Shown: positions 1 through 23,250 of the stretch, piece after piece
How positions within the stretch are numbered: the stretch's first letter is position 1
How the letters are laid out: the number at the start of each line of letters is the position of its first letter
DNA from: Pezizomycotina sp. ARF18
Taxonomy: Eukaryota; Ascomycota
NCBI GenBank assembly: GCA_002224055.1
Contig: AZLU01000378.1
Location: 1 to 23,725 of the forward strand
Length of the DNA stretch: 23,725 nucleotides
Reading direction: 5' to 3'
Notes under the pieces: model-generated
Told to the model about the DNA's origin: nothing
The model's input: only the letters and a program-made list of their open reading frames with translations
Databases searched by the model: none
Translations under genes and position numbers: made by a program

Positions 1-663
1 GGAAAGAGAAACGAAACTTTACCATTATAACGGACCTTTCCTTGTGGCTGGCATTACGTTGGGGATTCGTCGCTGAATACCTTGGTATATTCTCAGACGA
101 TTCAGATTCGGACTTTCAGGATCTTCTTCGAAGCCGATTAGGTAACCGTAATGCCGATACGAGGGGTGAGCCTGTCGAGCTCGAGACTGGCAGATTTGAT
201 GTAGTCGTCACGACTGGAGGAGTTTCTAATGGAAGGAGATCTGGGCTTCATTGCAGATGCAATAGTGGAGCTCGGAGCAAGAATCGTCCAAGGAGTCAGA
301 TGCGCCGGGTGAAGAGTCCTTTTCGCTTCCTTTGATCTGACAACGTTGGCTTCTTTGGTTTGCCTGGCGAACCTGTCGCAGCGATTGTGCCTACGCTTCC
401 TTGTATTACCGTATCTTCTTGTCCTGGCCAGAAGGGAGCTTGAACGGCCTTACGCTTGCGCCTGCCGATCGACGCCGACGAGAATCGTACACGATATTCA
501 GGTAACCGTGGCGACAGCCATCGACGGCCTTTGAGAGAGAAAGAGGGCTTCACAACGGTTGGGCTTGGAAGATGTCGGTGGATACGGTGGGCAATTCGTT
601 CTCAGCGAAGTCGCCGCCTGCTCGCCCTCAAGAGTTTACCCACTATTGCATGAAAGCTGGTGA
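1..663 (+). pseudogene. MoeA/gephyrin-type molybdopterin molybdotransferase, 3' part, frame-disrupted
   Basis: This is the C-terminal half of a MoeA-domain protein, the enzyme family that inserts molybdate into adenylated molybdopterin in molybdenum-cofactor synthesis. The upstream part lies outside the window. Read across frames, the conserved blocks come in family order. First is YHYNGPFLVA, corresponding to the D-x-N-x-P block, at about 21-50. Next come AEYLGIFSDD (73-102) and FDVVVTTGGVS (195-227, the TTGGVS signature). GDLGFIADAIVELGARIV follows at about 235-288, then GVR and VLFASF at about 295-335. FFGLPGEPVAAIV (the GLPGNPV block) is at about 351-390, CLRFLVLPYL at 388-417, and the C-terminal VYPLLHESW ends in TGA at 661-663. 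At least five frame changes interrupt it, for example near 229, 300, 345 and 390. No introns are evident. Fungal relatives include cnxE-type proteins. Identity is solid; whether it is truly dead or only mis-sequenced is open. Confidence 0.82.
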
Positions 664-1367
664 TAGTAAAGGATAGGCGTTGAAAAGGCAACATAATCAC
701 GGGGAGACAGAGCAGCAGCTCGTAAACGTATTTTCTTTAAATACTTGAATTAATACTATGCATGTAATTATCCAGCTTACGGGCCTTTCAAATAAGAATA
801 TACTTTTGCAATTGTTTCATCAATTTTCAGATTCTGTGCTCCCGTGAATAATGAAGTTCTTCTTCCTTGAAAGGCCTAAGCGGTTATTGATACGAATGCT
901 CAAGTTGCCTCGGGTCGTTTTGCGCTGTCGGGCTCCCATAATTTTACTCTCCTTGATCCGTATATTGTTTTCACTGTCATTTATTGTATACGTTACGCTG
1001 CATGACCCGTTTTATGACGCTTTGAGTTGCATTATATTCATCTGCCGCAGAACACTGTTCACACCATCAAACCGTCTCCTCGGCCCTCACACACCTACGT
1101 TGCGAATTTGAACCCGCTCGCGCGGGCCGGAAATATTATCCGTTGAATACATCATTGCAACTGGCTTCGGCGAAAACCCCCATAAGACTGAAGGAATTCA
1201 GGCCCTCTAATTGCCTTTAAAAAGGCTTCTCGATTTAGCATCCTATTTACATCTCACACTCATCATAACTTTGAAATCGATCATTTATTCTAGAATTATC
1301 TTCCTCTCATATAACTTTGCTTCTCTATGTATTTGCTTGGGGTCAGCTAATTCAGCTAATTCCAGAA
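664..1367. other. intergenic, no supported gene
   Basis: This spacer lies between the molybdotransferase and the TUDOR-domain gene. An 86-codon open frame at 851-1111 (+) is rich in Leu, Ile and Arg but matches no family I know, and the DNA is AT-rich with no coding-like conservation. Just before the next start codon, 1343-1362 holds a 9-bp tandem duplication of CAGCTAATT. The last 150 bases probably carry the promoter and 5' leader of the downstream gene. Confidence 0.5.
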
Positions 1368-1665
1368 ATGCCTTCAACGACTAAAGACAAAGAAGGTAAT
1401 CCCATTAAGGAGGAGACTTGTTTCTGTGAAATCTCGCGGCGGTAAACACCGGGCGATGTTGAAGCAGTAGTTACGAGCGAGGCTCAAGCTTCTCAGCATC
1501 CAGACCACGACGTCAAGAATCCCGAAGGTATTATTGAAGACTAGCACGGTATGTATCCTCCCAGCTCTTCATTTCACTGTGTAAACTAACGAGTCTTACC
1601 TGGATTAGGACACAAGGTTTCTCACAATCCCCAAGCGCTAGTCCATGGACGACCCAAGGAAATAA
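1368..1665 (+). pseudogene. Hypervirulence-associated (HVA1-type) TUDOR-domain protein, frame-disrupted
   Basis: This is a small two-exon gene of the fungal hypervirulence-associated TUDOR-domain family (formerly DUF2945), roughly 75-80 residues. Exon 1 starts MPSTTKDKEGNPIKE at 1368. It continues in shifted frames as VSVKSRGGKH (about 1418-1448), GDVEAVVTSEAQASQHPD and VKNPEGIIED. The intron runs 1549-1608 (60 nt), with a GTATGT donor, a CTAAC branch site and an AG acceptor. Exon 2 gives GHKVSHNPQALVHG and then the Asp-Asp-Pro-Arg-Lys tail just before TAA at 1663-1665. The DxxGHKVSHNP...LVHGDDP block is diagnostic of the family. Disruptions are frame shifts between 1414 and 1450, a TAG at 1542-1544 where the family has Gln (CAG), and a shift at about 1649. 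The family's biochemical role is not established; the name comes from a virulence phenotype reported for a yeast homologue. Confidence 0.85.
1549..1608 (+). other. Spliceosomal intron of the TUDOR-domain gene
   Basis: The GTATGT donor follows CACG at 1548 and the ATTAG acceptor ends at 1608. CTAAC at 1586-1590 fits the fungal branch-site consensus. Splicing joins CACG to GACAC and rebuilds the His-Gly-His motif that the family requires. Confidence 0.85.
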
Positions 1666-1669
1666 AATG

Positions 1670-2238
1670 ATGTGGGTATTATGCTTGTGTTGGATGTGCT
1701 ATTCGTTCGGAAGGAGAAAATAACATGATTATACTACCGTCTCTTTGCTTGAGAAGTAGTTCGTATCGGTACCGACTCGAATCTCTCTGTTAAATCTCTA
1801 AGCTAAAGCCTCGCAGTGCTTATTTCTTCTCTTTGCGACCTCTTTCTTCTGTAATACATATATAAAATCGATTGTATTTCTCAGCAGTTACTGTCTTTCC
1901 AATCCACGTTTGTTTGTTTAGAAAGATCGCTTAGGAGTGAATAAAAAGGTATATATATCAACTTCACACATTGCCGCCGCAGCCTTTCTCCTCAGGTTAT
2001 GTCCTCGGTAAGCCCGCATCGACCCGTCGAAAGGTTTCATAACCGGGGTGTTCACAAATAAGACGCTCTAGCAGACACCATCTCAGCTGGATGAGAACAC
2101 GTCTCACCCGTTACGCCGGGATCACCGAATTAACAACGAAACAATTCAGTCTTATGAGTCAGTTGCCTTGCTTTATTAATCAGGACAGAGCCCGTTGCAA
2201 GACATTTTCAACTATCATTCATCAAACAGATTTCAACC
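1670..2238. other. intergenic, promoter-like, no gene
   Basis: I see no coding signal here. The stretch contains TATA-like segments (TATATAAAATC near 1860 and GGTATATATATC near 1950) and pyrimidine-rich DNA. It probably contains the 3' end of the TUDOR-domain transcript and the promoter of the secreted-protein gene that starts at 2239. Confidence 0.4.
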
Positions 2239-2682
2239 ATGCGCGTCGCTACTCTCGCTGCCATTATCGCCTCCGCATTAGTGCCTATTTATGCAGATGA
2301 AGCAGTTTTTTAATCGACTGCAGATAGCGATAGTCCCCCATCCAACGCGGTGGCATCCCGAGCCGCGTATTACACCGATAACAACATGCCGCCGCCTATC
2401 AACCTTCAGATCTATCCATCGAGCTACAAGGGGGCCAAACGCACCAGTGCAGTGGGTTTCGAATTCATGGCGCGATTTCCCTTTCAGGTTCAGGCGTCAG
2501 TTCTGGGCGTACATATTTGGCCAGAACGGCGTCAACTCCGTTTTGCAACGTCCCGGGACAGAAATGGGAACGCTATCCACGATTGGAATGCGATGGAGAG
2601 GGGCGACATCTTCGATTACTGGGACGGACAGAGAAACGCACCCATGAGGTGTGCTGCGAGGTATCACTGCCACCATACCTAA
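2239..2682 (+). pseudogene. Small secreted protein, unknown family, with early in-frame stop
   Basis: The ATG at 2239 opens a classic secretion signal: MRVATLAAIIASALVPIYA, with a basic n-region, a hydrophobic core and an Ala-x-Ala-type cleavage site. A TAA at 2311-2313 stops the frame after 24 residues. The same frame then stays open for another 122 codons to 2682. That later part begins STADSDSPPSNAVASRAAYY and includes NNMPPPINLQIYPSSYKG and DIFDYWDGQRNAP. The stop follows a run of six T, so it could be a CAA-to-TAA change or a homopolymer error. The second half may also be frame-shifted, since other frames near 2480-2640 look equally plausible. I do not recognise the family. A short, signal-bearing product with a few Cys near the end fits a fungal secreted effector or wall protein, but that is inference. 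Confidence 0.5.
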
Positions 2683-3365
2683 GCGAAAGAAGTACTGTAT
2701 ATAAACGTTGGTCTGCATCGTCCGGGTGGATTCGACTGCTTAGCCTTATCAAAATAGGCTAACTCGAAGCTCAAATGCTTGCTAAAACCGGTCATATGAT
2801 CGATAGTGTTGTGTAACCATCGACTCGAAAGCCTTATTATATTAGCTGATGCTATGCGATAAAGAAAAAGGGCTGGGAAATGACCTGAACAAAATAACCA
2901 AAACTAGCAACCCTCAATTCTCTGTGCAGGCAGATCTTCCTTGGTAATGGGTGAATTAGTGTCTTTGATTAATGATCGATTACTTGTAAACTATTCTACT
3001 ACCTTTTTAAAAAGCGGAAAAAAAAGATGCGATATATCTACATTCTATATCTACATTCAGGAAACCCATCCCTTGTAATGTGGCCGATAAGAATATATTT
3101 TTTCCATGGAAAAAAAGTCCCAACCGAAACTCCATTAACCGATTAACAACCAAAGAATACAAAAAAATGAAATGCTTCCAATTCTTATACAAGTGACATG
3201 TCAAATCGTGGTAACTTGCATTAACCCATAGATCAAGCCGTAAAATCCGCCAAAGAAAGTCAAAAATCTTTAGCGGTCTTGCTTTTCCGTGTCAATGGCC
3301 TTTCTCCTCTCCTGGCTGCGAGGATAAACCAAGGAACGTTCAAACGTTTTGAATTGCATCAGGGT
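2683..3365. other. AT-rich intergenic, no gene
   Basis: The spacer separates the plus-strand secreted-protein gene from the 3' end of the minus-strand SAT4-like gene. It is rich in A-runs (for example around 3014-3025 and 3104-3116). Open frames on both strands here are low-complexity and match nothing. It probably holds the two convergent 3' untranslated regions. Confidence 0.5.
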
Positions 3366-4000
3366 TCATTTCCAAGATCTCAGAAGGTGCCGATCCAGCT
3401 CCTGACCATGGCCTGGATACCGGTCGTGATCTGTTGTGCTCTCGGTTTTCTTCCGGATTTGGGAAGATAGTATCAGAGTCGGCCCGTCCAAAGGATCACC
3501 AGCAAAGCTGTTTAGCTGTACCGAGTCCCTCCTCGTACTCAGAACGAATCCCAAATCGTATCCATCGTCCGGGTCCATCGTAACGAGGTTACGGTCTTCT
3601 TGCCCTTAGGGTTGGAGGCGGAGCGGCTCGAGGCAGTCGCACCTCCGCGAGAGCTAGAATTTGCCAGGCTTCTCGCCTTCGTCTGCCACAGCCACTTCAA
3701 TGGGGACAGCATGCTACAATAATTCCTGCTCCTTGCTCCGCACTCCCCCACAGCGCAACAGGAGGCAGCCTGGTGCTGTCTCCAACGACGATCGTTCGGT
3801 AATGGTGCAAGCGATCGCAACCCCCCGAGGGAGAAAATGATAATCAGGCCCGCGATCTTTTTCTTTGAAAGAAGTAGGTGTCGTAATAAGAAAACGGCAA
3901 TGCATATATCATGCAATCGGAGATGAAATGGAAACCTAAACTCGTAAAATAAGGTTGTAGTGCGGAAAAGGCGAGGCAGGTTTCCGACTGCAATAACGCC

Positions 4001-4070
4001 CTATAATTAATAGTCAGTTTCCAGCTTGAACATTCGATCTTGCATTCGAAGCATCAAACCCTTAACTTAC
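4001..4070 (-). other. Intron 3 of SAT4-like gene
   Basis: The 70-nt intron has donor GTAAGT and acceptor ATTATAG. It splits the Trp codon of the conserved Cys-x-Pro-x-x-x-x-Asn-Trp motif, and joining restores NW followed by ALLQSETCLAF, as in the family. Confidence 0.8.
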
Positions 4071-4270
4071 CAATTACTACTGATAGGCATGCACCAGAAT
4101 AGGTTGATGAATATCGATATCGTGAAACGACCGTCGTAAAAGCTATCGTGATATATAATGCGTAACGTAATTTCTTGAGTAGGCGGGAAAAGCTGAAGAT
4201 AAAAGAGAAGAAACGATGCCTTAACGCAGTAAAGGCATAATAACCACGGCATAATCGAAGAATAACAGAG

Positions 4271-4396
4271 CTATAATTTAGGTAAATAAGTAAGAACAGG
4301 TTGCTCTATCGTCTCCGTGTTACTGACATTCATTGGCTCGAGGGGTGCCGCAACCTTCATAACTCGTAATTGTATAGCTCTATCTGGGAAAACTAC
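4271..4396 (-). other. Intron 2 of SAT4-like gene
   Basis: On the minus strand the donor is GTAGTT after His-Phe-Gln and the acceptor is AAATTATAG. It is 126 nt, phase 0. Without splicing, the frame hits an in-frame TAG that is part of the acceptor itself, which supports removal. Confidence 0.65.
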
Positions 4397-4612
4397 TTGG
4401 AAATGGAGCGTGAGTGCCCCCAAAATTGAAATCCACATCCCATACGCCCCACTGCCAGAGTAGAGATCGACGACCGTAGCGCCGACGAAAGAGACCCATC
4501 CTACAACAATGATGAAATCGGAGAGCGCAAGGCGTTTTTGTAGCCAACCACGGACCCATAGCCGTAGAAGAACAAAGATGAGAGAAACGCCTACAATTGT
4601 CCACTCCGCTAT

Positions 4613-4714
4613 CTGAATTGGGACTTGAGATTAGCGCTGCACAAGAAATAAAAAGTAAAAGAGAAAGGTACTGCAAATGTATCAAAAGCCTGTATAAACT
4701 CCTGGCGCACTTAC
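4613..4714 (-). other. Intron 1 of SAT4-like gene
   Basis: Reading the minus strand, the donor is GTAAGT directly after the ninth codon and the acceptor is CAATTCAG. Splicing is in phase 0 and joins Thr-Ala to Ile-Ala-Glu-Trp. The second SAT4-like gene near 13.3 kb has an intron at the equivalent place. Confidence 0.75.
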
Positions 4715-5533
4715 CGCTGTGTTAAGGTCGCTAAGAGTCATCACGGGCGCGATCCTTTTTCACCTGCAGACGCGATACTTCGGTCCATGTGAAAAAAAAA
4801 AACAAATGATGTGAACAAAGGTGTAGGTGTAAATCCTTTGCAGGGTCTTATTCTAAGGGGATGCAATTCGTATTTAAATCAGCCCTTAGAAAAACAAGTA
4901 GACTGTCAACCCGGCTGTTTTAGTATACATGAAAACGTCGTCAATATTGGCAATAAATCCGTATTCATAACGGTCCACTCCACTGCAAAGGGGTGGGTTC
5001 TTGGTGGGGTCCCGCCACCAATAGCAGCAGCCTTGGAGGAGACATTATTACATTCTGTGACAAGTAACAGGGAAATTATATACCCTATATCCTCCGTTTC
5101 GAAGAATAAGAGGAGATCATTAACGAACAGGGAGATAGTCTGCAGACCGAGGGCCGTAATGTTTAGCCGAACGAATAAGCAGACAAACAGAGCGTAGTTT
5201 AATAGCAATTGGTATTATAATTTCCCCATTCGACGGGGCTGAACCGAAAAACGATAAAATCCTAGCAGGTCTTGTGTTCCCTGCAGGACAGAAAATACGA
5301 GGATGATTGGCTGGTCATAGTAATAGGAGAGCGTCCTATTGCTCTGGTAGTCACTCGGAGGGTCCAATTCACCTTCAAAAACATCGTGAATATTAAGAAA
5401 TTGCCCTAATCCGACATGAATATTCCGAATTCCCGATACTTTAGTGTATTCTTGGCCCGATAAGCTCGTTCAAGCCCCTGATATTGAGAAAACTCGTACT
5501 GTATTTGATATTGAGGCTTGCTAACAAGATCTG

Positions 5534-5615
5534 GAGATAGTGTCGTATCAGTAAGGGGTACGAACGTTTATTCAAACCCCTGGCTGTCTTTTAAGTTTTT
5601 ATTAGACACTATCTC
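5534..5615. repeat. Perfect 11-bp inverted repeat
   Basis: GAGATAGTGTC at 5534-5544 is matched by its reverse complement GACACTATCTC at 5605-5615, with a 60-base loop. No target-site duplication or transposon end was seen, so its role is unknown. Confidence 0.5.
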
Positions 5616-6050
5616 AATGTATCGTTTAACTTCTTTCTCAATATACGTATTAACTAAGATTGGTAATCCGCTAATACTTGCCGGAATAACGGCGAAAGAA
5701 AAAATAGTGTCTGATGATATTTCTTATCCGCTCACCACTCCGCGGAGGCTATTCATAACACCAATAAAACGGCATCCTGCGCCGATCCCTTTGATTCGCA
5801 AGGGAGAGAGAAACTTCAACCGCCCTTGTTATCTGGCAATTGATTGCGATTCTTCGCTAATCCTACGCCGAGTATCATGAAAATAATATTGTTTTGACAG
5901 ACTTTCTCGGTAGATCGCAGAAACGGTTCTAGCCCAAAAAAAATCTAAAAAGCATCGCAGATCGTATGACAGATAATTTCCATGTTTAGTTTTCCTGGTG
6001 ACTTTCAAACTGCCGACTCCGGCTCTGCTAGAATTGGAATCTGCGCCGAC

Positions 6051-6066
6051 CCAATCATCTCATTGG
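6051..6066. promoter_or_regulatory. Palindromic pair of CCAAT boxes
   Basis: CCAATCATCTCATTGG holds two inverted CCAAT elements about 590 bp upstream of the metallo-beta-lactamase-fold gene. CCAAT is the binding site of the fungal HAP complex. The match is direct; function is inference from position. Confidence 0.3.
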
Positions 6067-6643
6067 CAATTCTCCAAACCTCGGAATCTCTCAGTTCCTG
6101 GCAACTTTTCGTTGGTAGGTAACCTGCCAACTTACTCACTCACCTTTGTTCAATCCCTACCCCAAACTAGCATGATAGTTGCCGTCGCTAGTTGCCTATT
6201 TCTTAGCGTTTGAATTACTAGGTATTCAGTATGTCAGTTTCGACATACAGGCAGTCAGAGGCATGCCAGAAGCTTGCTGTTGGTGGGAGCCCCTTCAGGA
6301 ACCGAGATCACAGTTTGCGAACCTTTGGAATGGTTTACAATTCAATTTCCGGGATAAAATATAAGGCTTAATGGCCTTTTCTTTGATGACGTTGGGGACC
6401 TCTTTCTTGTTTTCTTCACTGAATAACCTTCCGTCGCAAAAGAGAATATTGGAGCGCTAAACGAGGTGACAAAATCTCGGAAAATGTTCTCCGTGATGAC
6501 CAATACTTTGAACTTGACGTATTTCTCAATGGCATTCCATTGCAAGCTCCGATTCTCTTTATTATCCTCCGCAGCGAGCCATTATCATGACTATGTGTTG
6601 TTGAATCAAACTTGATCAAACTCAGAAACGCAATCAATCCACA

Positions 6644-7955
6644 ATGTCCGCGATCACAAATTTAGCTATCGACGTCGACAAAAAGGCGCCACCAACTAGA
6701 ATTCATAGGAACCCTCCGGATCGATTACCCCCGGCTAAATCCACCCAAAGGCACCCCGACCTAGAACCGAAGCCTGGTGAAACACCTAATCACGGTGCTA
6801 GTCTGTATTTTATTGGAAACGCGACGACGGTTCTCGAATGGGAGGGCCTAAGACTCCTAACTGATCCGAACTTCTTGCATGCTGGAGGTATGACTTCATA
6901 AAACTATTCTCCGTGAAAATTACCAACGCCGGCTATATGCTTGCAGACGCCGCTAATTTTCAAAACCCTTTCAACAGACCACGTTCATCTAGGACCCGGC
7001 GCTACGAGCGTTCGTCTCAAAGACCCTGCGATTCCCATAGACCAACTACCCAGCGTTGACCTCGTCCTCCTGAGCCATTATCATGCCGACCATTTCGACC
7101 AGGAAGTTGAAGAGTCGCTGCGCAGAGACTTGCCTATAATCTCGACTACGCATGCAAAGGAGTGTCTCACCGAAAAGAAAGGCAGCGACGCCTTCACGAA
7201 CGTCCACGCTCTAGAACCTACGACTGGCTCTACTGGACTTATCAGGTGGGATATCGGAGATGAGGGCCGTGAAAGCAGGATACCTCGAGTTAAAGTTACG
7301 GCGATGCCTGGAAAGCACGTACCTCCGGCGTTGCGTCAACCTTGAATGACCTTGTTGCAGCTGTGAGTGTTGGAAATCTCTATTTTTATGCACATTTTTC
7401 GCTCCGCGGGCGCGGGAAGTTGTCAAGTTTCAGCCCTAGAACTTCGTAGGCTAATACACTCGGAGCCAGGTCCCCAACGAATGGCTGGATGTTGGAGCTA
7501 GGCTACAACAAAGGCGGAGGCAATGAGACATTCACATGTGGCTACAGGATATATATCACCGGAGACACGCTCATGGTCGACGAGCTCAAGGAGATACCGG
7601 AGCGGTACAAGGACCAGGGCATCGACCTGATGCTCATACACCTGGGCGGCACGACCATCCCAGGCCCCAAGATGCCGTTACTAATGGTGACCATGGACGC
7701 CGAGCAAGGAATCGAGCTCGTAAAACTTATCCACCCGGATCTAACCATCCCTATACATTTTGAGTAAGTCTTAAAACTCTGCATGTGAAGTATCAAAAGT
7801 TGGTACAAGGCATCCGCTGACTCCAAAGTAGTGACTATGATGTCTTTGCGAGCTCCTTGGACGACTTCAAGAAGGCTATTACCGAAGCGCAACTCGATGG
7901 CAAGGTCGTGTACCTCGATAGAGGTGACACTTTCAAGTTTGAGGTCAAGGAATAG
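6644..7955 (+). CDS. Metallo-beta-lactamase-fold (UlaG-like) metal-dependent hydrolase, four exons, two small frame breaks
   Basis: This is a probable cytosolic Zn-dependent hydrolase of the metallo-beta-lactamase superfamily; the substrate is unknown. The start MSAITNLAIDVDKKAPP lies in a good context (ccacaATG). Exon 1 (6644-6887) carries ASLYFIGNATTVLEWEG and LLTDPNFLHAG. Exon 2 (6978-7362) starts DHVHLGPGATSVRLKDP and contains the metal site LLSHYHADHFDQE (HxHxDH). Exon 3 (7470-7763) holds YRIYITGDTLMVDELKEI (metal-binding Asp) and MLIHLGGTTIPGPKMP. It ends in TIPIHF, whose His is likely the last ligand. Exon 4 (7832-7955) ends in VVYLDRGDTFKFEVKE. Introns are 90, 107 and 68 nt. Two lesions occur: a one-base loss in CCGGC at about 7327, before the expected GVASTLNDLVAA, and a one-base gain in the C-run at 7472-7475, before NGWMLELGY. 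They offset each other in frame but leave a TGA at 7344-7346. This is the best preserved gene here and may be intact in reality. Confidence 0.88.
6888..6977 (+). other. Intron 1 of metallo-beta-lactamase-fold gene
   Basis: The donor GTATGA and acceptor TTCAACAG flank 90 nt. Joining GGAG to ACCAC yields Gly-Asp-His-Val-His-Leu-Gly-Pro, the conserved continuation in this family. Confidence 0.8.
7363..7469 (+). other. Intron 2 of metallo-beta-lactamase-fold gene
   Basis: The donor is GTGAGT after GCAGCT and the acceptor is GAGCCAG. A GCTAATAC branch-like site lies about 20 nt upstream of the acceptor. The frame on each side is shifted by the adjacent one-base indels. Confidence 0.7.
7764..7831 (+). 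other. Intron 3 of metallo-beta-lactamase-fold gene
   Basis: This 68-nt intron has a perfect GTAAGT donor, a CTGAC branch-like site and a GTAG acceptor. Splicing gives His-Phe-Asp-Asp-Tyr-Asp-Val-Phe. Confidence 0.85.
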
Positions 7956-8097
7956 GCCGTTCGGGTACTTGAATTCATCGTAGTATTGAAGATTGCCGGT
8001 TGATACTGGAAATAGGGTTGCACAGCAAAAGCAAAAACCAGAACGAAATGCGAATATATACTTTTTTTTTCTCGTGTTACAGGAAATATCGTGTATT

Positions 8098-10115
8098 AAT
8101 AAGAGTGCTCAAGATTTAAAATAGACGCCCAAGCAATGCAATGTTCAACTATAAACCTCCTTCCCTTTTCCCTATTTCTTTTATGTTTATACTGTGTATT
8201 TCTGTCAAACCCATCTCTCTTCTCTCCGTCATATCCCTTCTCATCTATATCCAGAACGAGTAGCTTGTGACAGCAAAGATGGTGGGAACTAAAGATTGAT
8301 CTTCTCTTCTCATCGTTTTCATAGACTCGAGTGGGAGACACTGGATTCATGCGACTCTTCGTGAACCGCTCCGACAAATCTGTATAAAAAGGTGTCGCAG
8401 TTAGTAATTCGTGACACCCTCAAGCTGCATCAGAAAACAACTCGACACGGATGACAGATACTCACAATCGTAAAGAACCGGCATGAAAACGCTCAAGGCG
8501 ACAATCTGGCCAAATCCCCACGCCGAAAATTCCCAGTTGACGACGGCGACGAAGGGGATCAGGAGGATGAGGAGGAGCACCAGGATGGCGGCATACGAGA
8601 ACGCGGTGACGAACTTGAAAACCCTCTCTGCCTCGGAGAGCCAGCTGACCCTTGCCCTCGCCACCTCGTGCATTTCTAGCCGGATGATGAAAGCGCGAGC
8701 AGACTGGCAGAGCACACCGTCAGGGTGCACCAAAATACAGCATTTGGAACCGCATCGACGATGTGGAGGAAGTTGTGGATCGCCCAGAAGTGCGGCAAAG
8801 CGACGGCGAAGAAGCTTTCCCTCCCGCACCACTGAGAGTGATGCCACAGCGAGCTGAGGCTGTAGAGGCTGTTCTTTCTCTCGCAGACGGAGATGTACAT
8901 GAACCGGCGCACATGGCGAAGGCCCAGAGCTAAGGTAGAAGGTGCTCCAACCCGCTTCCTACCAACTGCTGCATGATCAGCAGTGTAAGTGGGATCAGGA
9001 CGACGCCGTTCAGCGACACGCACAGGAGGAGGTAGTGGTCCGTGTCCGACACCTGGTGGTCGCCTGGCGAATACACGCAGCGATGACGAGAGAAGCAGAA
9101 AACCACGCCTGCAATTTCTGGAATGACTCGAGCGCGTTGGTAAAGGCCGGGGGCATCGCGCCGACCGAACACGTTCGAGGATACGGAAGCGGCGGGATAG
9201 TGGCAGTTATACACCGCACTGTGGCAATTTCGATGGTAGTACGGGGAGATATACTTGAGAAGAAGTAGAACATGATATAGCGATGAGAAGCTGGGTTGCA
9301 TATGATATGAAGACCTGTAAAGAGCTCAAGTTAGTGTCAGCGTCGCTCTCAGGGGAGGGAAACAAGGCAAGCTTTGCTTACTCCAGGCCCGCCGATCTCT
9401 GGATCCGCTGTTAGTAAGTTTCTGGCTCGGATGCAGATATCTGCTTGGCATCGGTTCGTCGCGTCGAACGATAGCGTGACGTTGTTTAGGAACAAATTCT
9501 GGCAGGATCTGACATGACCATATCCGGCGCCGTATCCCTCATCCTCTTCCTCTTCCCCGTGCCCCTTAGGTTTGTCGTTATCTTCCAAGCCCCACTTGTC
9601 TTCCCTTTCCATCCCACATCGCAGGATCTTGCAGTTGAAATGCATCGCCCGTCCAATAACTGACGCCAGCCTATCTCCAGCAGAACTGAGTCGTCCGTGC
9701 CGTTAATTTTATATGCTGACAAAGCGTCCGTTAGGTTCTTCGAGTACCTGCCGTCGTGAAGCGCCCTGGTAACGTTTGTATAGGAGACGCACGTACCAGT
9801 TGATTCCACGAGTAATCTAGTTCCGCGTCGCTGAGTTCGTGCATGATCGTTTTGCAGTAGCTCGGGACGGACGTGATTTGTGATAGATCCGTTCCATTGG
9901 CAAAGTTTCCGCAAGCACAGATAACGACGGGTCCGTTTGCTCGTATGTCTCCGAGAACTCCTCCCAATGTATCGCAGCCGGGTCTCGTAGCACTTCCGCG
10001 CGAAGTACTTCTCAGAGTCATTCGAGATGTTCTGAGATTCCATCTCGATTGAATGGTCTTCGTCCTCTAATGCTGCTGCGGTCAGTGAATTACTCTTCTG
10101 TGACCAGAAGGACAT
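8098..10115 (-). pseudogene. Uncharacterised fungal polytopic membrane protein, frame-disrupted
   Basis: This is a multi-exon gene for a membrane protein of a kind seen in ascomycetes with no assigned function. The first recognisable block, PGCDTLGGVLGDIRANGP (about 9960-9910), lies in a Cys- and N-glycosylation-rich, probably extracellular region (also NGTDLSQIT, YTNVTRALHDG, NNVTLSF). Next comes NLLTADPEIGGPG, and after the intron at about 9312-9380, VFISYATQLLIAI, the first membrane segment. Later blocks are PAFTNALESFQKLQAWFSAS, then HYLLLCVSLNGVVLIPLTLL, then EAERVFKFVTAFSYAAILVL, then WGFGQIVALSVFMPVLYDY. The last intron has a GTGAGT donor and TATACAG acceptor at about 8392-8466. The final exon gives LSERFTKSRMNPVSPTRVYE and a charged tail to TAA at 8098. 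At least four frame shifts separate these blocks. The N-terminus (ATG at 10115) is uncertain. Confidence 0.65.
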
Positions 10116-12385
10116 TCTGGTAATTTTGGGCCAGCCGTTAATAATATATATATGATTTTATCTGAGTTGATTAGAGAAATTATGTCACACTCGGTGATAA
10201 ATGAAGAAAAGCGATTATAATTAGCGCACAACAATATGCATCCAACATTCCAGAGGTCTTCCGGACGGGAGCAGGACGGGAGGGGTCTTGGCTCCTTAAT
10301 ATATGGCCAAGCAATACGTTCACCCTGCCTCAGGAGTTCAGATACTATCTTTTACCCGTAGAGAGATAAGTTTTCCGATCGACAGACTCGGACCCTCTCA
10401 TCATTCCTTGGCTTTCGAATTATCAACCCCTCCTCTCTCACAAAGAGTAACGGCAGCAAGGCAAAAAACTGATACTCCACCGTCCTCTCTATGGCAATCA
10501 AGGACACATCGCTCTTCCTTCCGAGTCGGGGTAGCGGGATGACATTTTCGGTATACGAGGTGAAATGTTTTGTAAGATTTGCTCGCAGACAAGAACCGTA
10601 CTATCTCGTGTCCTTGAACTTGTCTGCTCTACCGATCGGTTTCAGGTCAACCTCATGCATGCAGATTAAACAAAGTCCTAATAAGCAGTAAGAAAGCTAT
10701 TACAAAGAAACATTTCGAAATGCTAATCTTTCGGCGAATCTCTGCGGAATGGAAGTGATGCGTGCCTAGAACCGATGGCTGCTCATGATAATCTACGGCC
10801 AGCACTTCGCTTTGGAGATTTGAGGACAGATCACGAACCTCGCTGGACTATATGAGCTGATCTTCCCCCTACAAACACGGACTGTTCTATCCTGTCTCGG
10901 TCGGCTATTTTGCTTCGAAAGGCTGAGATCTTCTCCCGTTCACGTTTTCATTCTTTTCTGGAATTGGTTGACCGCTGAAAGACCCTCGCATTCTTGAGGC
11001 ATGTCAACATTGCAAGTGGCGTACGCGTCATTGTCCATCAGATGGCGCACAACCAGCAAAATCCAGAAAATTCTTATAACATTCTATAACATTCTCTTTC
11101 GTCCTTTTCAGAAATTCAGGCACTGGTGCTGCTACTGTTGTTTATTGTGTTCTTACCTTACACTCTGGGATTAGTGGGTTATTTCAATGTTGGTGCATCC
11201 AAGTGTCATTTGGGTGAACGGTTTATAACCAGCGCATGAACTTCCTCATTTTACGAGACTCTGCAGAACACCATCTAAATTGTTTCAATGCAACCTTTGA
11301 TTTGAATTCATATAAATATAGATATTATACCTATCCACCCCCTATTCCTGATCATTATTAAAAGGGCGGAGATTAGATTTGCTTGACTCGGTGCGGAGTT
11401 ACGCTTAAAAGTAAGTGCTCCTATCTCCTCCATGCGATGTCTCCGCTCTAAAAGTTGACGGTTGTGTTGGTCAGACTGGGAAGTCAGGAGGGTATCTTAG
11501 ATAATTGACGACTAGACCCTCAAGCAATGATAATATCCTTACAACTGAGGCCGATTCTCGATATGCCTTTGAGAGCAGCTAGCCGCGAGGTTATTTTAAT
11601 TCGACAACATCGCTAACTTCCGTTTACTAGCCTCGCCTGACCTTACATGATTGGCACAGTCGCTAGAACTAAAAAGGGAAAGTTGAGTATAGCTCTATAG
11701 GATGACTCTAGAAAGCCATATATCAGGCTTATAGTACTAATCTTATAATATGTTTGACCGATGCGTGTTCCTTGTCTTGTTGCGGCTATGATGACAGAGT
11801 CGCAAGTTCGACGACCCTCGGCTACCCTTTTATATGGTTGAAGTCACGCCAAAATCATAGTATACGCATTGTAACCTACTTTTTATGAACGCGCCTGCGC
11901 TATAATGTCCTACCCAAGATTTTATTTGCAAATTATCATCCACCGCGGGAGAGAAAGAGGAGGAAGAGCAACAAAAGGGGAGGGGCGGTGCTCAGCGCAA
12001 CTCAGTTTCATCAGACTCGGGACTATCCGAATCAGAATCGGGTCGTATTCGACCCCTCGTGTTCGGCAATTTCTCGTGACTGCCAGAAAAAAAGATATAC
12101 GCTTCGAATATGAATAAATGATAGATCAATCTCTGAAAATGGAACCAAAGTCGTCACTCTTATGTGTTCTTTTTCTGCGTCGATGGAAACGACTTCTCCG
12201 AGACATCATGCATCGGGAAGAACATCAAGTATCGTAAAAGAAGTCGAAGTATCATCATGGAACATAAAAAGTAATGATAAGATCAACTTGAATGAGATCA
12301 TAGACGCCGAAAACATTGACGTGCCGCTAGATACAAATATGATAGACACCGATGCGCGGAATTTCAAGAAATCGCTTGAACGGAG
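10116..12385. other. 2.3-kb gene-poor region
   Basis: I see no supported gene. Open frames of 63-79 codons at 10303-10691 overlap on both strands and match nothing. The plus-strand frame at 11905-12117 is basic and low-complexity, and the 155-codon frame from 12162 (+) has no recognisable domain. A minus-strand start-less stretch near 10985-11050 reads VVRHLMDNDAYATC without family match. A short direct duplication of ATAACATTCT occurs at about 11076-11096. Short AT-rich tracts near 10142 and 11320 could be promoter or 3' flank. I looked for tRNA box patterns and found none. Confidence 0.45.
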
Positions 12386-13314
12386 TTATAGATGGACAAA
12401 GGAAAATCCTGCCGGCGCGGGAAAGGAAAGAGAAGTTTCAAAATGGCTTTCACGTCCGTTGGGCGATATCGGGTCGACAATTTGGTCCGCTGCAACTCCT
12501 CGTTCAACGTCTGCTCCGCCAGTGCTTGACCCTCCCCATCCGCGCATCTGCATCAAGCTCCTCAGAGGGGCTATCCAACTCCAGCCTCGAAATCCCAGCG
12601 TCCACCCACTGCCGCTATTTCTCTCCTGAACATCGTCATCCCCTTGTCCGTTATCCGAGGGGTTCAGACTAATTTTCGCCGGTTCCTCCTTGACATTGTG
12701 ATTTTTCACTACCATCGCCTTCCCTCAACACCGCCATCTTCGCCATCCTTCTCTCTCACGGTCCCAAGATCTGTCCCAGCGTCCCCCGTAGTCCGCGTTT
12801 TGTTACTCTTCCTGCTTCTCCGGCTCAACTCACGGTCCCAAACTCAACTCTCGTATCGGCGCTCAACACCTGTAGACCCGGGAGTCGTCGAATTCCCATC
12901 GCCGGTTGCCGTCGAGTTAGAGACTAGCGGCGGGGTTGCGGCAGCAGGCGCAGGGTGAAGGAAGACCCATACCGTCAAGACAGTGTCGGCACAGTGCGAA
13001 TACGTCATGCAGAGAAGGGCGAAGATGACGAAGATGTCACTCAGGACACCTGCTGCTGCTTGTACCAGCGGACCCACATCCGGAGGCACGTGAAGAAGAA
13101 AGCCACGAGCCAGAATATCCATTGCGCAACCTGAGGATAAAGAGGACGGGTATCGACACATTAGCATAGTCTCGAATAAATCCTTCGAAGAGTAACAACC
13201 AGGCATCTGCTCCGTGCTCCTCGCGTTCGATTCCCTGCCTCTTTCTTGGACCATTTGCTCCGAATCTCGGGGTTTAGATTTACTACTTACAACTGCGCTG
13301 ACCGTGGAAATCAT
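12386..13314 (-). pseudogene. Second SAT4-like membrane protein, N-terminus plus hydrophilic tail, probably internally deleted
   Basis: The start MISTVSAV is at 13314-13291, followed by a GTAAGT donor and an intron ending TATCCTCAG at about 13131. Exon 2 begins VAQWIFWLVAFFFTCLRMWV, which aligns with IAEWTIVGVSLIFVLLRLWV of the gene at 4.7 kb and has the intron at the same place. After a frame shift in the CAG/GCA repeat at about 13048-13060, it continues LSDIFVIFALLCMTYSHCAD. The downstream helices expected of a seven-helix protein are not found. Instead GC-rich DNA from about 12840 to 12390 reads, in changing frames, as hydrophilic tail-like sequence (GTDLGTVREKDGEDGGVEG, KEEPAKISLNPSDNGQGDDD, RLELDSPSEELDADARMG). 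That resembles the cytoplasmic tails of SAT4 proteins, but the link is inference. The boundary at 12386 is approximate. Confidence 0.55.
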
Positions 13315-14117
13315 GGCCCAGGACTGTGCGCGTTTCTAGCAGAAAGAGAAGAATTGCGATTCCGTGTAGTGCACGGAGCAAGCAGGAACATCTGAGTCCG
13401 AGAGAAATACATGCGGAAAGTATGGCGCAACGACCGCTCATATACTTAAGCACGCCTCGTAACACAATACAAGCACGACAGAGGATCTCCTCCACCTTTA
13501 ACTTGGTGGATAATTTCTAAATTTGGGTTCACCCCGCCCCTCTCAAAATCCCTATTCGCTACCTCTCTTGGCTGCGACGTGGTGGTTAACCCATTTCTCT
13601 CACGGCCTTCTAGGTTCGGCCATGAGCGTTCTCGTCAAATTTTCGTTCATAGGATTCCGAGTATCCACACAACGCGACACTGGCAAACCTCTCAGAGAAA
13701 TGAGACGGAACTTGCCAGTGCGCATGGCATGGGTTTATCAAGAAACTTTGTCCAATCTCGCTGCACCAACCCTCGGCGAACTCCAAGCGAACCTATTGGA
13801 TCGTCTTCGTATATAGCAATCTAATCCCGATAACAGGAGAGCAAACTCGTTTTCTCAAGATCTACGCATTTCACCGACCCTCCGATACATAGGAGGTAGG
13901 CACGAGATCAAATTAGTTCACGAACGACCAAAATATGCAAGCAAGCCTATTGAAAACGACAAGGCTTTAGCGTTAATGCCTCCTGTAAATACTCGCATTC
14001 GTTACGCCTCTATTACGTACAAACTTTGTGAAAGAGATCGAACCATCTCTTCTCAACTTCGCTAATCTTCACCTCGAAGAGCAGGTGGATTTCGTTTACC
14101 AGTCCATCAAGTGCAAA
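13315..14117. other. Intergenic, no supported gene
   Basis: The region lies between the 3' end of the MFS gene and the start of the second SAT4-like gene. Overlapping open frames at 13283-13495 (-), 13523-13816 (+) and 13579-13824 (+) match no family. A perfect 8-bp inverted repeat (ACTGGCAA at 13679-13686, TTGCCAGT at 13712-13719) could form a small hairpin. Confidence 0.45.
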
Positions 14118-14273
14118 TTAGAATGCTTGGTCCACCTGCGGAAGTTTTTGCCCCAGAAATAAAACGAAGGCGCCGAGGGCTGTGGTGCCGACTGTCAAGC
14201 CTCCGACGAGCATGATGGGGCCGATGAAGCCGGACCTGGCAGCCCAATCGTTGATCCAATATGTCATGCCGAA

Positions 14274-14338
14274 CTACAACAAGAAGTCAGCTACAACTCG
14301 CACAAACCCTGTGATATAATGTCGGGTTAAGAACTTAC
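14274..14338 (-). other. Last intron of MFS gene
   Basis: The 65-nt intron has donor GTAAGT and acceptor TTGTTGTAG, phase 0. It joins Asn-Thr-Phe-Ala to Phe-Gly-Met-Thr, a well-conserved transition in this MFS group. Confidence 0.8.
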
Positions 14339-15198
14339 AGCAAATGTGTTCTTGAGCACGTGCCTGTCACCATGATCTGTCCAGAGATCGTCGATAGCAA
14401 TCAACGGCGTACTAGTGATTTACAAAGAGCATCAGTTCACCATACTCCCATCTCAAACTTTTCACTCCGTCTATCTATAACGATCTCGAAAGGACGTTTC
14501 ACAACTTACAGTGATAGCAATAGTCGGTATCGAAACAACCTCCAACCCCACGATCCCAAACCCCAGCACAACTACGACCTCCCAATCCCACTCCTCTGAT
14601 ACCCATACGCAACAATCAAACTGCCCACCAGGCACCCCAAAACGTGCACCGCGACCGCCGGCAATCTCATCTCCGGCTCCTGATCCCGCCATTCTTCTTC
14701 GTCGCGCGCTGCTAACCAATCGCTCAGCGGTCCCGCTGTAAGTAACCCGAACATTCCGCCGCCGATAAGCGCAAAGTTGACCAGTCCAACCTGCCTCGGC
14801 GTGAAATTAATACGGCGGCTTAGAGAAAGACTGGGATTGCGTCAGGTTGAGCGCTAGGAGTAGGCAAGACGCGAATGCCATGGCTGCAGCGCCCAGAGGA
14901 TGATGGGTACGAAGAAGATCTTGAGTGGTATAATAACATCAGTCGCAAGGAGTCGGACAACGTCGGGATCCGCGCGGGTGATGAGGCGAAACTCCTTTTT
15001 TGACGGGGAGCCGTGGCCGACGATCGCGGATGTAGACGCGGTGGGGTCTTCGATGTCGTCTGGTACTTTGTCGCGGGTTTATCGGAATCTGAAGGGGACG
15101 CGGAGGTGTCGGGTCCTCGGCAGGGGAGAGGCTTGTACTTTGTTTCCGGAAGGAGACGACAAGAGAATGAAGCTGACGACTTGGAGGATCGTGCAGAT

Positions 15199-15287
15199 CT
15201 GACAGCATTCCCAGAAACCGTTAGTTTTTTTTCAAGTTCTCCATCGTCACGGTGACATTCTTCGCGGAAATAAGGGAATTTTCTTAC
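15199..15287 (-). other. Intron of MFS gene
   Basis: The donor is GTAAGA directly after a conserved Trp-Phe-Phe-Trp (rebuilt with one missing T) and the acceptor is CTGTCAG. It is 89 nt. Confidence 0.65.
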
Positions 15288-16379
15288 CCAGAAGAACCAC
15301 CTCCACCCAAAGCTTCACTGACATTCCCAGATATAATCGGTCCCAGAAACAACCCCATGAAGAAGCACCAGCTAAACGCCTCATCAATACCTTCACCAAA
15401 ATATACAACGAATCATTACTCACAAGTAAAGCCCAACCACGTGCCCCTCTCATGCAGGAAGAAGTATCAGTAACGAAACCGTCATGATACTCTCGTGCGT
15501 CGCCGCGCCGATCCCGCACAGCACCCTCGCGCCGAGGAAGGAGCTGTAGGACGTAGCAGTGGCCTGCCATATATTTGCCGCGATGCAGATGGCACCGTAT
15601 ACAATGCTAGCGCTCCGGCGGCCGAAGGCGTTGCAGTACGGAATGATGATGAAGTTGGCGTACCAAGAGCGAGGACGGTCGCGCCGGTCTGGCAGAAGAA
15701 CCATTTCTCATTAGCGATGGGGTTCGCAGAGAGAAGAGGAAGGAGTAGAGGAAAGGGGGAAAGGGGAAGGGTGTTGCGTACTAAGATGCAATCCGCGATT
15801 CAGATTTATCCCACAGTTGCATGAATATGGGCGTCATCGGCGCGATGCTGAGCGGGTCAGAACGCTGACGAAAACGAAGAAGCTCTGGTGAAGATGGTGA
15901 TGAACTTCACCAGCGGCTCCAATTCTAGAGGAAGAGGGTGGCAAATAAATCAGCGCGACCGGATTCCGCATGGTGGAAAAGTTCAGACTTGTAAGTTACA
16001 TACCAGCGGATCCCGCGGATCGTTCGACGGCTGGGGATCAAGACGGAGCCTTGTCCTTTCCGTGAGAATGGACAAAGTGAACATCACCTACGTCCTTCAT
16101 GATCTCTGTCCCGGCACTATTCGATGTGCAGCTCATCCTCGACCGCGTGGATCTTGTCATTCACCGTTGCGGCTGTCATCTTGTTACCAGTCCGATGTTC
16201 GAGTTGTAAAATAAAGATCTTCAGACGACAGAGGAACGAGGGAGAGAAGGAGCCTTAAAGGGAGAAAGTTACTGAGGAAGGAGGATTCAGACAGATGATA
16301 AACGTCTATCAAAACCTGCTCGTCCTTCCATATTCTAACAGATCACCGGGGTCAAGGATGTTCGCGTTCATTTTATAGA

Positions 16380-17330
16380 CGTCCTACAAAAGCGCTATCA
16401 AATACGAAGATATCTACGTAACCCTGAAAGTTGGATATTGCTCCGAGGTAGTTGGCTTGATAAGGACGGAAATCCTGGTTCCTCGCGATCACAACGTTGA
16501 AAGACGTTTCAGCGCCTGTTTTGGCAGACTCTCGCGAGATTCGGCCGACCTCAACTACCGTTTTTCGCCGACACCCATACTGAAACACTCAGTTTGGGGG
16601 ATTGAGGTGATTGTTTTGGCGGGGTTGTTTGCGGGGGTGTCCCCAGCCCGGAGCCAGGATTCCGCACAACTCCCGCACGAGAAACGTGACGGAATCGGAC
16701 TTCCGTATGGCGAATTGAGCGTTCCTGACTTCAAACCAAAAACTTCTATACTAATCTCATATCGATATGGAGGACCTTCTGCAATGTGAATATGTCGCGG
16801 GTAACACGCGCTTCTGTCTCGGAGATAGTCCAGTTGAAATCGGGGAAACTGCATCTTGACGCGCCTCTCCTTGCAGATCCGGATCTAAAGCCACGACAAG
16901 TAATATCTTCTCGACGATAGCATGCAGCTTAGAAATCTAGCGGCGTGCATTCGCGAAAAAGGATAGGATGCACGATATCGAGCTTGTATTCCGCGAGGTC
17001 TGTGACCAATATTCAGATACCGATATCTGAGTAACCATGTCGTCGCCTCCTCCGCATTCCACCAATTCCCATTTTTGTAGAAGGCTGCGAAATCGGCCTG
17101 ATGCGCCATCACGAGAAACAAAGTCGTCTAGCGTCGCGATGGTATCGAATAGAGTACCGACGCTTTCATCTTTCGGCGTGACCAAGGACTTCATCTCTAC
17201 TTTCGAACATGACTAAGCTGGAACTGTCATCGTATTGGTATTTTGTTTTGAAATCCAGTTCGAAAGGGGCCGACATCTCTCGTCTCAAAGCATCAAATAT
17301 CTCCATCACAAATTCCTCGGCAATAGCTTG
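16380..17330 (-). pseudogene. Unidentified coding-like region, frame-disrupted
   Basis: Between the MFS and hydrolase genes the minus strand has stretches that read like real protein but jump between frames. From about 17330 there is AIAEEFVMEIFDALRREMSA, then ELDFKTKYQYDDSSSLVMFE and SRDEVLGHAE. Next come SVGTLFDTIATLDDF (about 17165-17121), TDLAEYKLDIVHPILFRECT (about 17003-16944) and FPDFNWTISETEARVTRD (about 16848-16795). FNVVIARNQDFRPYQANYLG follows at about 16500-16441, then VDIFVFDSAF. Composition and amino-acid balance look coding, and shifts occur roughly every 150 bases as in the neighbours. I do not recognise the family, cannot fix start, stop or introns, and propose no function. 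Plus-strand open frames here are weaker. Confidence 0.4.
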
Positions 17331-17466
17331 TATAATGTACACAAATAATAATGAAAACGGATGCTAGCATGTAACTGAACACCTGACGCCTAAGGCTTCC
17401 TCGATCTTCCATCTCTAGTATGATATCTCACACATGAATGTTCCGGTCAAGGTGCCATTATACTCA

Positions 17467-18765
17467 CTAATACTTCGCCGCCGCCCTCTCCACAAACTCC
17501 CTAACAAGCTCATTATACTCCCCTTCAACCTCAATATTCAACGCATGACCGCCTTATACTCCTTCACCTCACAAACCGGCTTCAGCTCCTCCGCCAAATA
17601 CCTCGAATGGCTAACCCCGATCATCCTATCCTCCGTCCCCGTGCATACGAGTATAAATCGATCTTCTCCTTCAGGACCTTCAGCCTCTCGGGGCGAAGTA
17701 GTGCCATCCCGCAGCAATCGCCTGAGCGAGAAAAGATAGCAAGGTCGGTTGCGTCACGTTGATGTTCCTCCACACTTCCTCGGCGTTGAAGCGGTCGGCT
17801 TTCGTGGGAAGATATCGTCTGGCGATTCGAGCCACTCGTCGGTGAAGAGGTTGTGGCGCTGGACGCGGAGGCGCTCTTCGAAGGATTTGGGCGGAGGAGC
17901 TCGAGGCGCTTTTGGAGGTGACCGAGGAAGCCCTGCATTTGAAATCAGTACCATAAATCCGCTATTTCCCCTCACCGACGAACCCATACAGAACAGTAGG
18001 ACATAATATTCTACGCACGAGATTATCCCTCGTCAAGAACGCCGCAGTACTCTGCAGCGTCAAGCTGGCTATCCGCTCGGGGATCTTGTACGCCAGCTCT
18101 AGCGCGATCATCCCACCATGGACACGCCGACGACGTGTATCTTCCGCTCGTCCTTCGGCCAGCCTACGTGCGCCATCAGCTCGATGACGTCCTGCGCCAT
18201 TTCGGAGGTGCTGTAGCGCATGATCGGCTTGTCGGAGCTTCCCACGCCACGGTTGTCGAAGACGAGGACGGAAGTACTTGTCGCCGTGGATTTTACCGAA
18301 GTACCGGATCTATGAGGGGTGGATCAGAGGTCAGTCCAAGGTCGAGTGCTGTGGCGCCGGAATATTGAAATTTACCTGTCTGTCCCACGCGATGAGCGGT
18401 GCCCTGAGCCCATGATGAAGACCTAGAAGGTGTTGCCCTAGAGGTCAGTCTAGGTATGTTCTCACTAAATCTACCGCGACTCGCGGCCTTGTCCACAGTG
18501 AAGGATCATCAAGCGTCGAGCGGTTTTCACATACGAGATGATCGGTCCAGTTCCATGAAGCTCGTAGTTGATATTCAGCGACCCCTCGGCCCTTAGCTAC
18601 TCCGCTAAGCCCTTCTTAGTTGGTTCGATGAGTTCGTAGACGATTTTGATCCTCTCGTCCTTGAGGAGTTCGGGAATCGGATCCTGCGGTTTCGCGACGC
18701 CAGTGATACATAGTAGTCAGTTCCCAGTGCGAGTGCAGGAATAGAGAGCTTTGAAGGGTGAGGTA
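17467..18765 (-). pseudogene. Alpha/beta hydrolase, full length, frame-disrupted
   Basis: This is a serine hydrolase of the alpha/beta-hydrolase fold. From the 5' side (about 18700) it reads PQDPIPELLKDERIKIVYEL, then SLNINYELHGTGP. An intron follows (18534-18438), then VFIMG...APLIAWDRQ, a second intron (18375-18310) and RYFGKIHGDKY. Then VLVFDNRGVGSSDKPIMRYS carries the DNRGxGxS block. The nucleophile elbow is VVGVSMGG (Gly-x-Ser-x-Gly) at about 18132-18109, followed by MIALELAYKIPERIASLTLQ. After the intron 18018-17933 come SFEERLRVQRHNLFTDEWLE and ERLKVLKEKIDLYSYARG. MIGVSHSRYLAEELKP follows, and GGHALNIEVEGEYNELVREF carries the catalytic His just before TAG at 17469-17467. Around eight one-base shifts occur, for example GGT in the nucleophile elbow at 18116-18117. 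The start is uncertain. Substrate unknown; lactone, ester or epoxide hydrolysis are all possible. Confidence 0.85.
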
Positions 18766-18835
18766 GTTACATGGTGAAGGTGTCCCCTCTCGTGCGACAC
18801 TGGCGATGTCTCGTGGGATGAGGATGACGTGTTGC

Positions 18836-18853
18836 TTTTTTTTTTTTTTTTTT
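18836..18853 (+). repeat. Poly(T) tract, 18 bases
   Basis: An uninterrupted run of 18 T lies upstream of the minus-strand alpha/beta hydrolase; on its coding strand this is poly(A). Such tracts can exclude nucleosomes in fungal promoters, but their length is also error-prone. Confidence 0.9.
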
Positions 18854-19020
18854 CCTTGAAGTTGTTGATGGTGATCTTTGTTGGTTGGGCGGGCGGGCGG
18901 ATGGATCGAAGGAAGGTTTTTGTTAAGCCTCGTTTTTCTTACTTCCTCTTAACTTCCCGTGGCCGAAAATGGGCTCGAAAAAGAAAGCACCTGCAATATT
19001 TGGCAGGTAGGTCCGGAAAC

Positions 19021-19047
19021 AAAAAAAAAAAAAAAAAAAAAAAAAAA
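19021..19047 (+). repeat. Poly(A) tract, 27 bases
   Basis: An uninterrupted run of 27 A. No retroelement open frame or target-site duplication was found next to it, so a retroposon tail is not supported. Confidence 0.9.
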
Positions 19048-19200
19048 CAAGGCCAGGAAACCATCACCAACGGATGTTTACTTCTCCATTATTTCAGTAG
19101 TTTGAATGCGTCACTCCAAAAGCGAATTGCTCTATATACTCCTTGCTTTTGTACATGCGGTACTATCTAGCTCTAGTTCCGATCTTAAGCCGAGGCTTGA

Positions 19201-19980
19201 TCACCAGTTGAAGGCCGGACGGACTCTAGCTCCAAAAGGTTCTTGTAGAAAAACGTTCCACCTATCGGGATCCATCCAGCGGCGATATACCATACTAGGG
19301 TATGAACCTGCACTGTTGCGTACCAGAAATTGCGTCAGCAGGTGAATCTTTAAACTTGAGATTTGATCCGGGTAGTGTGCGAAAGCTACAATGGAAGGAA
19401 ACCAACCCGAACGTGCCCCAGCCTCGCATACACGGTCTCCGCAGGACTCCCAGTCTCTGTATCCAGAAGCTAGTGGTCGAAGGGCGTTCCCCTGTCAGCG
19501 AACAGTGTATTGCTGCTGAAACTAAGGCAGCGGATCGAAAACGCACCAACAGCGTCCTCTTCACTTCCCTCGCGACCTCCTCAATCTTAAGCATGAGTAC
19601 TCTCGCGACGCCTTCCTCTTAAAATCCGGCGACACCAGTAGCTTCTCCACGATGCCCCTAAATGGTCCGGTCTCCGTTACCGGCTTGAACAGCATCGCAA
19701 CGCCAGCGACAGTATTCCGATCGTCTGGGGACAGCACGATAGCTGTATTGCGGTGAGTGCGGATGTTCATGAGCCCGCTCGTCCACCACCGCACCATTTT
19801 CTCCTGGTCGAGGGAGGAAGGAACGTCGCGATCGTATTGTCTCTCAGAATACAAGCTGCGTGAAGCCCTTGCTTCCATGATCATAATCTCTTGAACAACT
19901 GCTGGTATGTAGATGAGTGGCAGTGCACTAGGTATATCTCGAAAGAGAATTCCCACGAAACATATTAGCTTTTTATACAA
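19201..19980 (-). CDS. GNAT-family N-acetyltransferase, three exons, one clear frame break
   Basis: This is an acetyl-CoA-dependent N-acetyltransferase of the GCN5-related fold; the acceptor is unknown. The open frame begins upstream of DIPSALPLIYIP. The core reads LDQEKMVRWWTSGLMNIRTH, then NTAIVLSPDD..NTVAGVAMLF, then GPFRGIVEKLLVSPDFKRK. A one-base loss in a GGG context at 19611-19612 shifts to GVARVLMLKIEEVAREVKRT. This is motif A, with the R/Q-x-x-G-x-A acetyl-CoA loop as RKGVAR. The intron 19546-19470 (GTGCGT donor, CACTAG acceptor) joins Thr-Leu-Leu to LLDTETGSPAETVYARLGHV (motif B). A second probable intron, 19389-19295, precedes YGISPLDG, and GGTFFYKNL closes the domain. The nominal stop is TGA at 19201-19203, slightly beyond the usual FFYK-x-L end. 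Length and motif order fit a complete enzyme. Confidence 0.83.
19295..19389 (-). other. Probable intron 2 of GNAT gene
   Basis: The donor is GTAGCT and the acceptor is ACCCTAG, 95 nt. The flanks read GFLP and YGISPLDG, which are adjacent in relatives. The phase does not join perfectly, so either the donor differs or another one-base error lies nearby. Confidence 0.55.
19470..19546 (-). other. Intron 1 of GNAT gene
   Basis: The donor GTGCGT follows Thr-Leu-Leu and the acceptor CCACTAG precedes Leu-Leu-Asp-Thr. It is 77 nt, phase 0. Removing it restores the uninterrupted strand between motifs A and B. Confidence 0.8.
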
Positions 19981-22749: not shown

Positions 22750-23250
22750 TCATTGAAGGTATTAGAAGGATTTCAAAACCTCCATCCCCGTAATTGAAAT
22801 TGAATCTTGGATCGCGATAGCGCTGCTTCAAGAAAGGATCCATATTGACCCTAGTCGCATTCTGAATATGAAAAAGGTAAACTACTTTGTTCCCTCTTCG
22901 GTTGAATGCTGAAAAAAAAAAAAAAAAAAAAAAAAAGACCGCAAAGTGTCTGCAATACGGTGACATCGTCCTTTGGTAAAAAGGATGGTTCGGGTGTCCA
23001 CTTTTTGCCCTGCCCTTTTGGTGTTTTGTTGATGAGATAATTACTTATATTGCCTCAGGGGTAAAGAAGAGCACATCAAAGTGAGCGCGGACGGCGGGGA
23101 TATCATGTTTTTCAGGAAAATGTGAGTGAACTGGTAGCGAGCCTGGCAATGCACTTCACGATATTCAGCCACCAACGACAGGGTATACGTAGAGGAGAGG
23201 GTACCTTTTCTGTCTAGGAGACGGCGAAAAAGAACAATAAGAGTCAAGAC
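22750..23250 (-). pseudogene. Faint coding relic, family unknown
   Basis: On the minus strand two short blocks look coding. The first, at about 23190-23055, reads EVHCQARYQFTHIF and, one frame over, HDIPAVRAHFDVLFFTPEAI. The second, at about 22864-22770, reads RVNMDPFLKQRYRDPRFNFN and then YGDGGFEIL. Between them lies the 25-base homopolymer, which on this strand is a T-run ending in CAG and so resembles a 3' splice site. A second acceptor-like TTTTTCATATTCAG follows 45 bases later. I do not recognise a family and cannot define start or end. Confidence 0.25.
22912..22936 (+). repeat. Poly(A) tract, 25 bases
   Basis: An uninterrupted run of 25 A. On the minus strand it is a polypyrimidine run followed directly by CAG. 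Confidence 0.9.

Follow-up and report, generated by a model that had tools for sequence, protein, structure and literature searches.

The frame shifts that interrupt the genes in the window are, with high confidence, consensus errors of the assembly and not a genuine feature of the DNA. The window is the entire contig C378, 23,725 bases long and one of the 408 contigs of a 46,361,250-base assembly, and the introns and the SAT4-like Fung_rhodopsin domain found in it indicate that the source DNA is fungal. The first-pass annotation had attributed the shifts to sequence errors and had associated core genes free of shifts with a true pseudogene block. We found that core genes are not free of them, as 21 shifts lay in 2,124 codons of five core genes, each on a different contig outside the window; the sequence-error reading held, because core genes were broken in the same manner and the two window genes compared with homologues together fit the core rate. 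Since the core genes are broken alike, the problem is one of base calling or consensus across the assembly rather than a cluster of dead genes confined to this region.

The errors would chiefly be single missing bases, occurring about once per 300 coding bases, and would strike essential genes as often as window genes, on contigs of all tested sizes. The window genes are therefore most likely whole in the living fungus, and the window would represent ordinary Pezizomycotina genes (an MBL-fold hydrolase, an alpha/beta-hydrolase, a SAT4-like membrane protein and a transporter) written in a faulty consensus. The probable source is an uncorrected long-read consensus. The longest contigs of the assembly reach 1.12 Mb, long A/T runs are frequent (in the sampled stretches, at most 39 bases for A and 40 for T) and missing bases are in excess, which together suggest a long-read platform.

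Frame shifts in core genes on other contigs

Shifts were separated from introns with our own protein-to-DNA aligner, which contains states for a frame shift and for a GT-AG intron; it admits GT-AG introns only, and the intron borders are thus GT-AG by construction. Two settings, a stricter and a looser one, were used, and protein homologue searches were made for the MBL-fold gene, eEF2 and the hydrolase. On intact synthetic genes the aligner called one false shift in 16,776 codons (52 pairs, comprising 20 hydrolase and 32 MBL pairs from the homologues, the lowest identity printed being 0.44), and with planted single-base deletions it called 47 against 48 planted. The core count was based on one locus for each of the following genes, taken as single or main copies (copies outside the assembly are possible):

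Actin, contig C382: 4 shifts in 365 codons; identity 0.92 to yeast actin
Beta-tubulin, contig C143: 3 shifts in 421 codons; identity 0.97
eEF2, contig C64: 4 shifts in 795 codons; identity 0.80
eEF1A, contig C25: 8 shifts in 433 codons; identity 0.86
Histone H3, contig C32: 2 shifts in 110 codons; identity 0.78

Over the 6,372 nt covered, this amounts to one shift every 303 nt (95% range, one every 199-490 nt), or about 0.33% of coding bases. One base was missing in 18 events, two bases were missing in 2 and extra bases were present in 1, although a few of the eEF1A events may be aligner compromises close to introns. None of the five genes contained an in-frame stop, and their readable codons were 78-97% identical to the references. 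Near-identical second copies were absent from the fetched stretches.

Several loci were left out of this count. On C380, 133 codons of a partial eEF1A-like piece were free of shifts, and the H3 copy on C66 had 5 in 128 codons at the looser setting; GAPDH on C164 appeared as two overlapping pieces in different frames. Also left out were H4, which gave no good match, an actin-related gene on C15 and the translation factors of stretches L020-L024, for which the three frames alone were inspected. The assembly contains two eEF1A-type genes, the main copy at C25:211644-213630 and the diverged partial copy at C380:3745-4703.

Genome-wide, 38 matches to the DEAD domain fell into 25 loci, of which 13 were in two pieces; judged without the aligner, 7 of the 25 changed frame at a point where no intron could fit. 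At one locus on C50, a match of the mitochondrial-type NADH dehydrogenase was composed of overlapping pieces in two frames, a case rendered less certain by the mitochondrial code and introns. Twenty 10-kb stretches, partly picked for core-gene matches, were also sampled. Among the 19 without withheld bases, 13 had no stop-to-stop frame of 300 amino acids and the other six had 8 such frames in all; as introns also break frames, this scarcity is only supporting. Intact long frames were found on C53 (596 amino acids), on C151 (577) and in the first frame of eEF2 (341). If shifts fell evenly, one every 303 nt, intact stretches of this kind would be uncommon, yet a large genome is expected to contain some.

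Frame shifts in window genes

The window contained the following features:

183..239, plus strand: piece resembling a molybdopterin-binding domain (E 0.024, below cut-off)
4067..4567 (about), minus strand: SAT4-like Fung_rhodopsin domain (E 1.8e-7; a single frame covers profile positions 1-125, with X in place of stops)
6659..7952, plus strand: MBL-fold metallo-hydrolase gene (Lactamase_B_2; Pfam, two frame pieces, E 7.1e-8 and 2.9e-5)
6888-6977, 7764-7831 and a third at 7367-7465 or 7330-7433, plus strand: introns of the MBL-fold gene, from alignments
7322..7340, plus strand: frame-change region of the MBL-fold gene
7367..7475, plus strand: end of an intron and start of the next exon in the MBL-fold gene
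15486..15653, minus strand: transporter piece with a weak Sugar_tr match (E 0.0011, below the curated cut-off)
17540..18600 (bounds approximate), minus strand: alpha/beta-hydrolase gene
19612..19803, minus strand: piece resembling a GNAT acetyltransferase (E 0.2, below cut-off)

Two of the nine genes that had been described as broken, the hydrolase and MBL-fold genes, were compared with homologues. Lesions were recovered in both, about one of them in the latter, but one site assigned to the MBL-fold gene, 7472-7475, did not stand and instead adjoins an intron.

The alpha/beta-hydrolase gene, recognized by an Abhydrolase_1 match in Pfam on a single frame piece (17962-18309, E 2.7e-4), was aligned with nine homologues and showed 5-8 shifts at the stricter setting, mostly with one base missing. 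At the looser setting, P0245, P0246 and P0247 each gave 11 and P0249 gave 9. In the alignment with P0246, 7 of the 8 events were of the type with one missing base (FS2). In-frame stops numbered 0 or 1 against the nine homologues, residues were conserved on either side of the shifts, and identity to the homologues was 47-60%, close to the 44-52% found between intact homologues of different genera. The shift reported at 18116 was recovered, as the 18110 bin was called in all four alignments printed (two homologues at two settings). With 8 shifts in 915 nt, the gene exceeds the 3.0 expected from the core rate (P 0.012). The five best homologues carry names from Orbilia, Drechslerella or Dactylellina.

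The MBL-fold gene carries about one lesion. In alignments with 120 homologues, 71 contained no shift, 48 contained one and 1 contained two, and in-frame stops were distributed as one in 70, two in 1 and none in 49. The region 7322-7340 received 44 of the 50 shift calls, in agreement with the shift placed at 7327. At 7472-7475, by comparison, the aligner called no shift (none of the 48 calls listed, of 50 in total), and an intron was placed at 7367-7465 or 7330-7433 in the three alignments with printed coordinates. A second lesion right after the intron acceptor near 7472-7475 is possible. The density of 1 shift in 999 nt is compared with 3.3 expected from the core rate (P 0.16).

Density and sequence context of the shifts

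The similar density of shifts across genes noted in the first-pass annotation was not borne out, given 8 in the hydrolase and 1 in the MBL-fold gene over comparable lengths. The core genes are likewise uneven, as seen in eEF1A and eEF2. Pooled, the two window genes had 9 shifts in 1,914 nt versus 6.3 expected at the core rate (P 0.19). Read depth varying along a contig may account for this unevenness.

No enrichment was detected at homopolymers, at which many of the shifts had been placed. For 30 events (21 core, 8 hydrolase and 1 MBL), the mean longest nearby run was 2.47, versus 2.35 for coding positions drawn at random from these genes, and 97 of 400 draws equalled or exceeded the observed value; the test is weak because the placement of each shift is uncertain by several bases. 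With no such enrichment detected, the homopolymer claim is unsupported, and the platform is one that we infer from the general features given above. No stop codon was present at any of the 21 core shift sites, and the nearest stop in the incoming frame lay 24 to 327 nt downstream. We also found no k-mer shared by the core shifts beyond background (275, 297 and 186 of 300 draws were as high for k = 3, 4 and 5, respectively).

PMC12007338 describes a comparable situation, in which indel errors in long-read drafts fragment genes and correction lowered annotated pseudogenes from 23.3 to 5.6%. The draft treated there resembles the present assembly in its short indels without matching substitutions, in their assembly-wide occurrence and in the splitting of conserved genes into frames. 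It differs in two respects: deletion errors there are tied to homopolymers, whereas no enrichment was detected here, and the rate reported there is below 0.05% of the genome, as against that of the core genes here.

Alternative explanations

Decay of dead genes should add substitutions and stops to indels and spare actin and tubulin, and neither is the case here. The window could in principle be a true pseudogene block, with the contig representing a decaying subtelomeric or dispensable region, and it resembles a pseudogene cluster in having many adjacent genes with broken frames; the hydrolase density above the core rate also points this way. However, essential genes show the same kind of break on five contigs outside the window, hardly any in-frame stops occur, the hydrolase retains an identity near that among intact homologues, and the MBL-fold gene, likewise on C378, carries about one lesion. 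Moreover, the usual indices gave no signature of repeat-induced point mutation (RIP) in the window, where the composite index was below zero in 23 of the 24 one-kilobase segments, ruling out RIP as the cause of the breaks. We consider such a block very improbable. A narrower version, in which the hydrolase alone is a genuine pseudogene on top of assembly-wide errors, draws on the same higher density and is somewhat less improbable but still quite unlikely, because its stops are few, its events are of the base-missing type seen in core genes, its flanking residues are conserved and coverage may vary along the contig. Of a different kind is the misreading of introns or splice-site choices as shifts, which may apply to some of the claimed shifts and is, as an explanation for these, doubtful though not far-fetched. 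The site 7472-7475 fits it, and the core genes are intron-rich, with 9 introns in beta-tubulin and 5 each in actin, eEF2 and eEF1A (stretches L036, L043, L033 and L045), a count that we take to be rich for such a fungus. It leaves the DEAD-helicase loci without intron room unexplained, and the aligner called its shifts even though introns were allowed.

Programmed frameshifting is known in Euplotes, and insertional RNA editing is known in Physarum mitochondria; in both, the frames of DNA and protein differ in one direction, and here, too, bases were lacking in 20 of 21 core events. Genomic shifts bridged by such frameshifting or editing are nevertheless extremely improbable, since, unlike in those systems, the sites have neither a stop (21 of 21) nor a motif beyond background, and up to 8 events fall within one gene. 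A shade less probable again is that bases are truly missing from nuclear genes, essential ones included, of a deep-branching fungus and are restored in mRNA by insertional editing. Real gaps would upend the accepted picture of how fungi express their nuclear genes, and nothing here favours that. As gene decay, programmed frameshifting and RIP do not match the evidence, consensus error remains. Any tally of pseudogenes, lost genes, short proteins or unusual gene structures based on the window or on the other 407 contigs would consequently be misleading, and gene models of this assembly need accurate reads first.

Additional features of the assembly

The eEF2 of the assembly had a maximum identity of 0.806 to the homologues compared. 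As a yardstick, the eEF2 proteins of Dactylella cylindrospora (P0231) and Hyaloscypha (P0149) are 0.801 identical, which is about an equal distance.

No Rfam match was obtained in 140 kb of sampled DNA (14 of the 20 stretches), and ARAGORN gave no tRNA genes on 19 of the 20. The genome-wide tRNA search yielded at least 54 matches, from 63 of 1,606 candidates scored. C50, at about 5177-230876, accounts for 33 of the 54 tRNA matches listed, every one on the plus strand, and for all eight matches of the Proton_antipo_M family (NADH-dehydrogenase-type). The pattern suggests that this contig is a mitochondrial genome with a length of 230 kb or more, or else a concatemer of such a genome.

A tandem array with units of approximately 110 nt, the copies being about 60-69% alike, was observed on C10 (L028:3742-5770), and this stretch holds three frames longer than 300 amino acids. 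The window itself contains A/T runs of 27 (A), 25 (A) and 18 (T), with sites 19017-19047 and 22912-22936 listed for long runs. At 2237-2682 of the window, there is a short frame with a signal-peptide-like start and no Pfam match.
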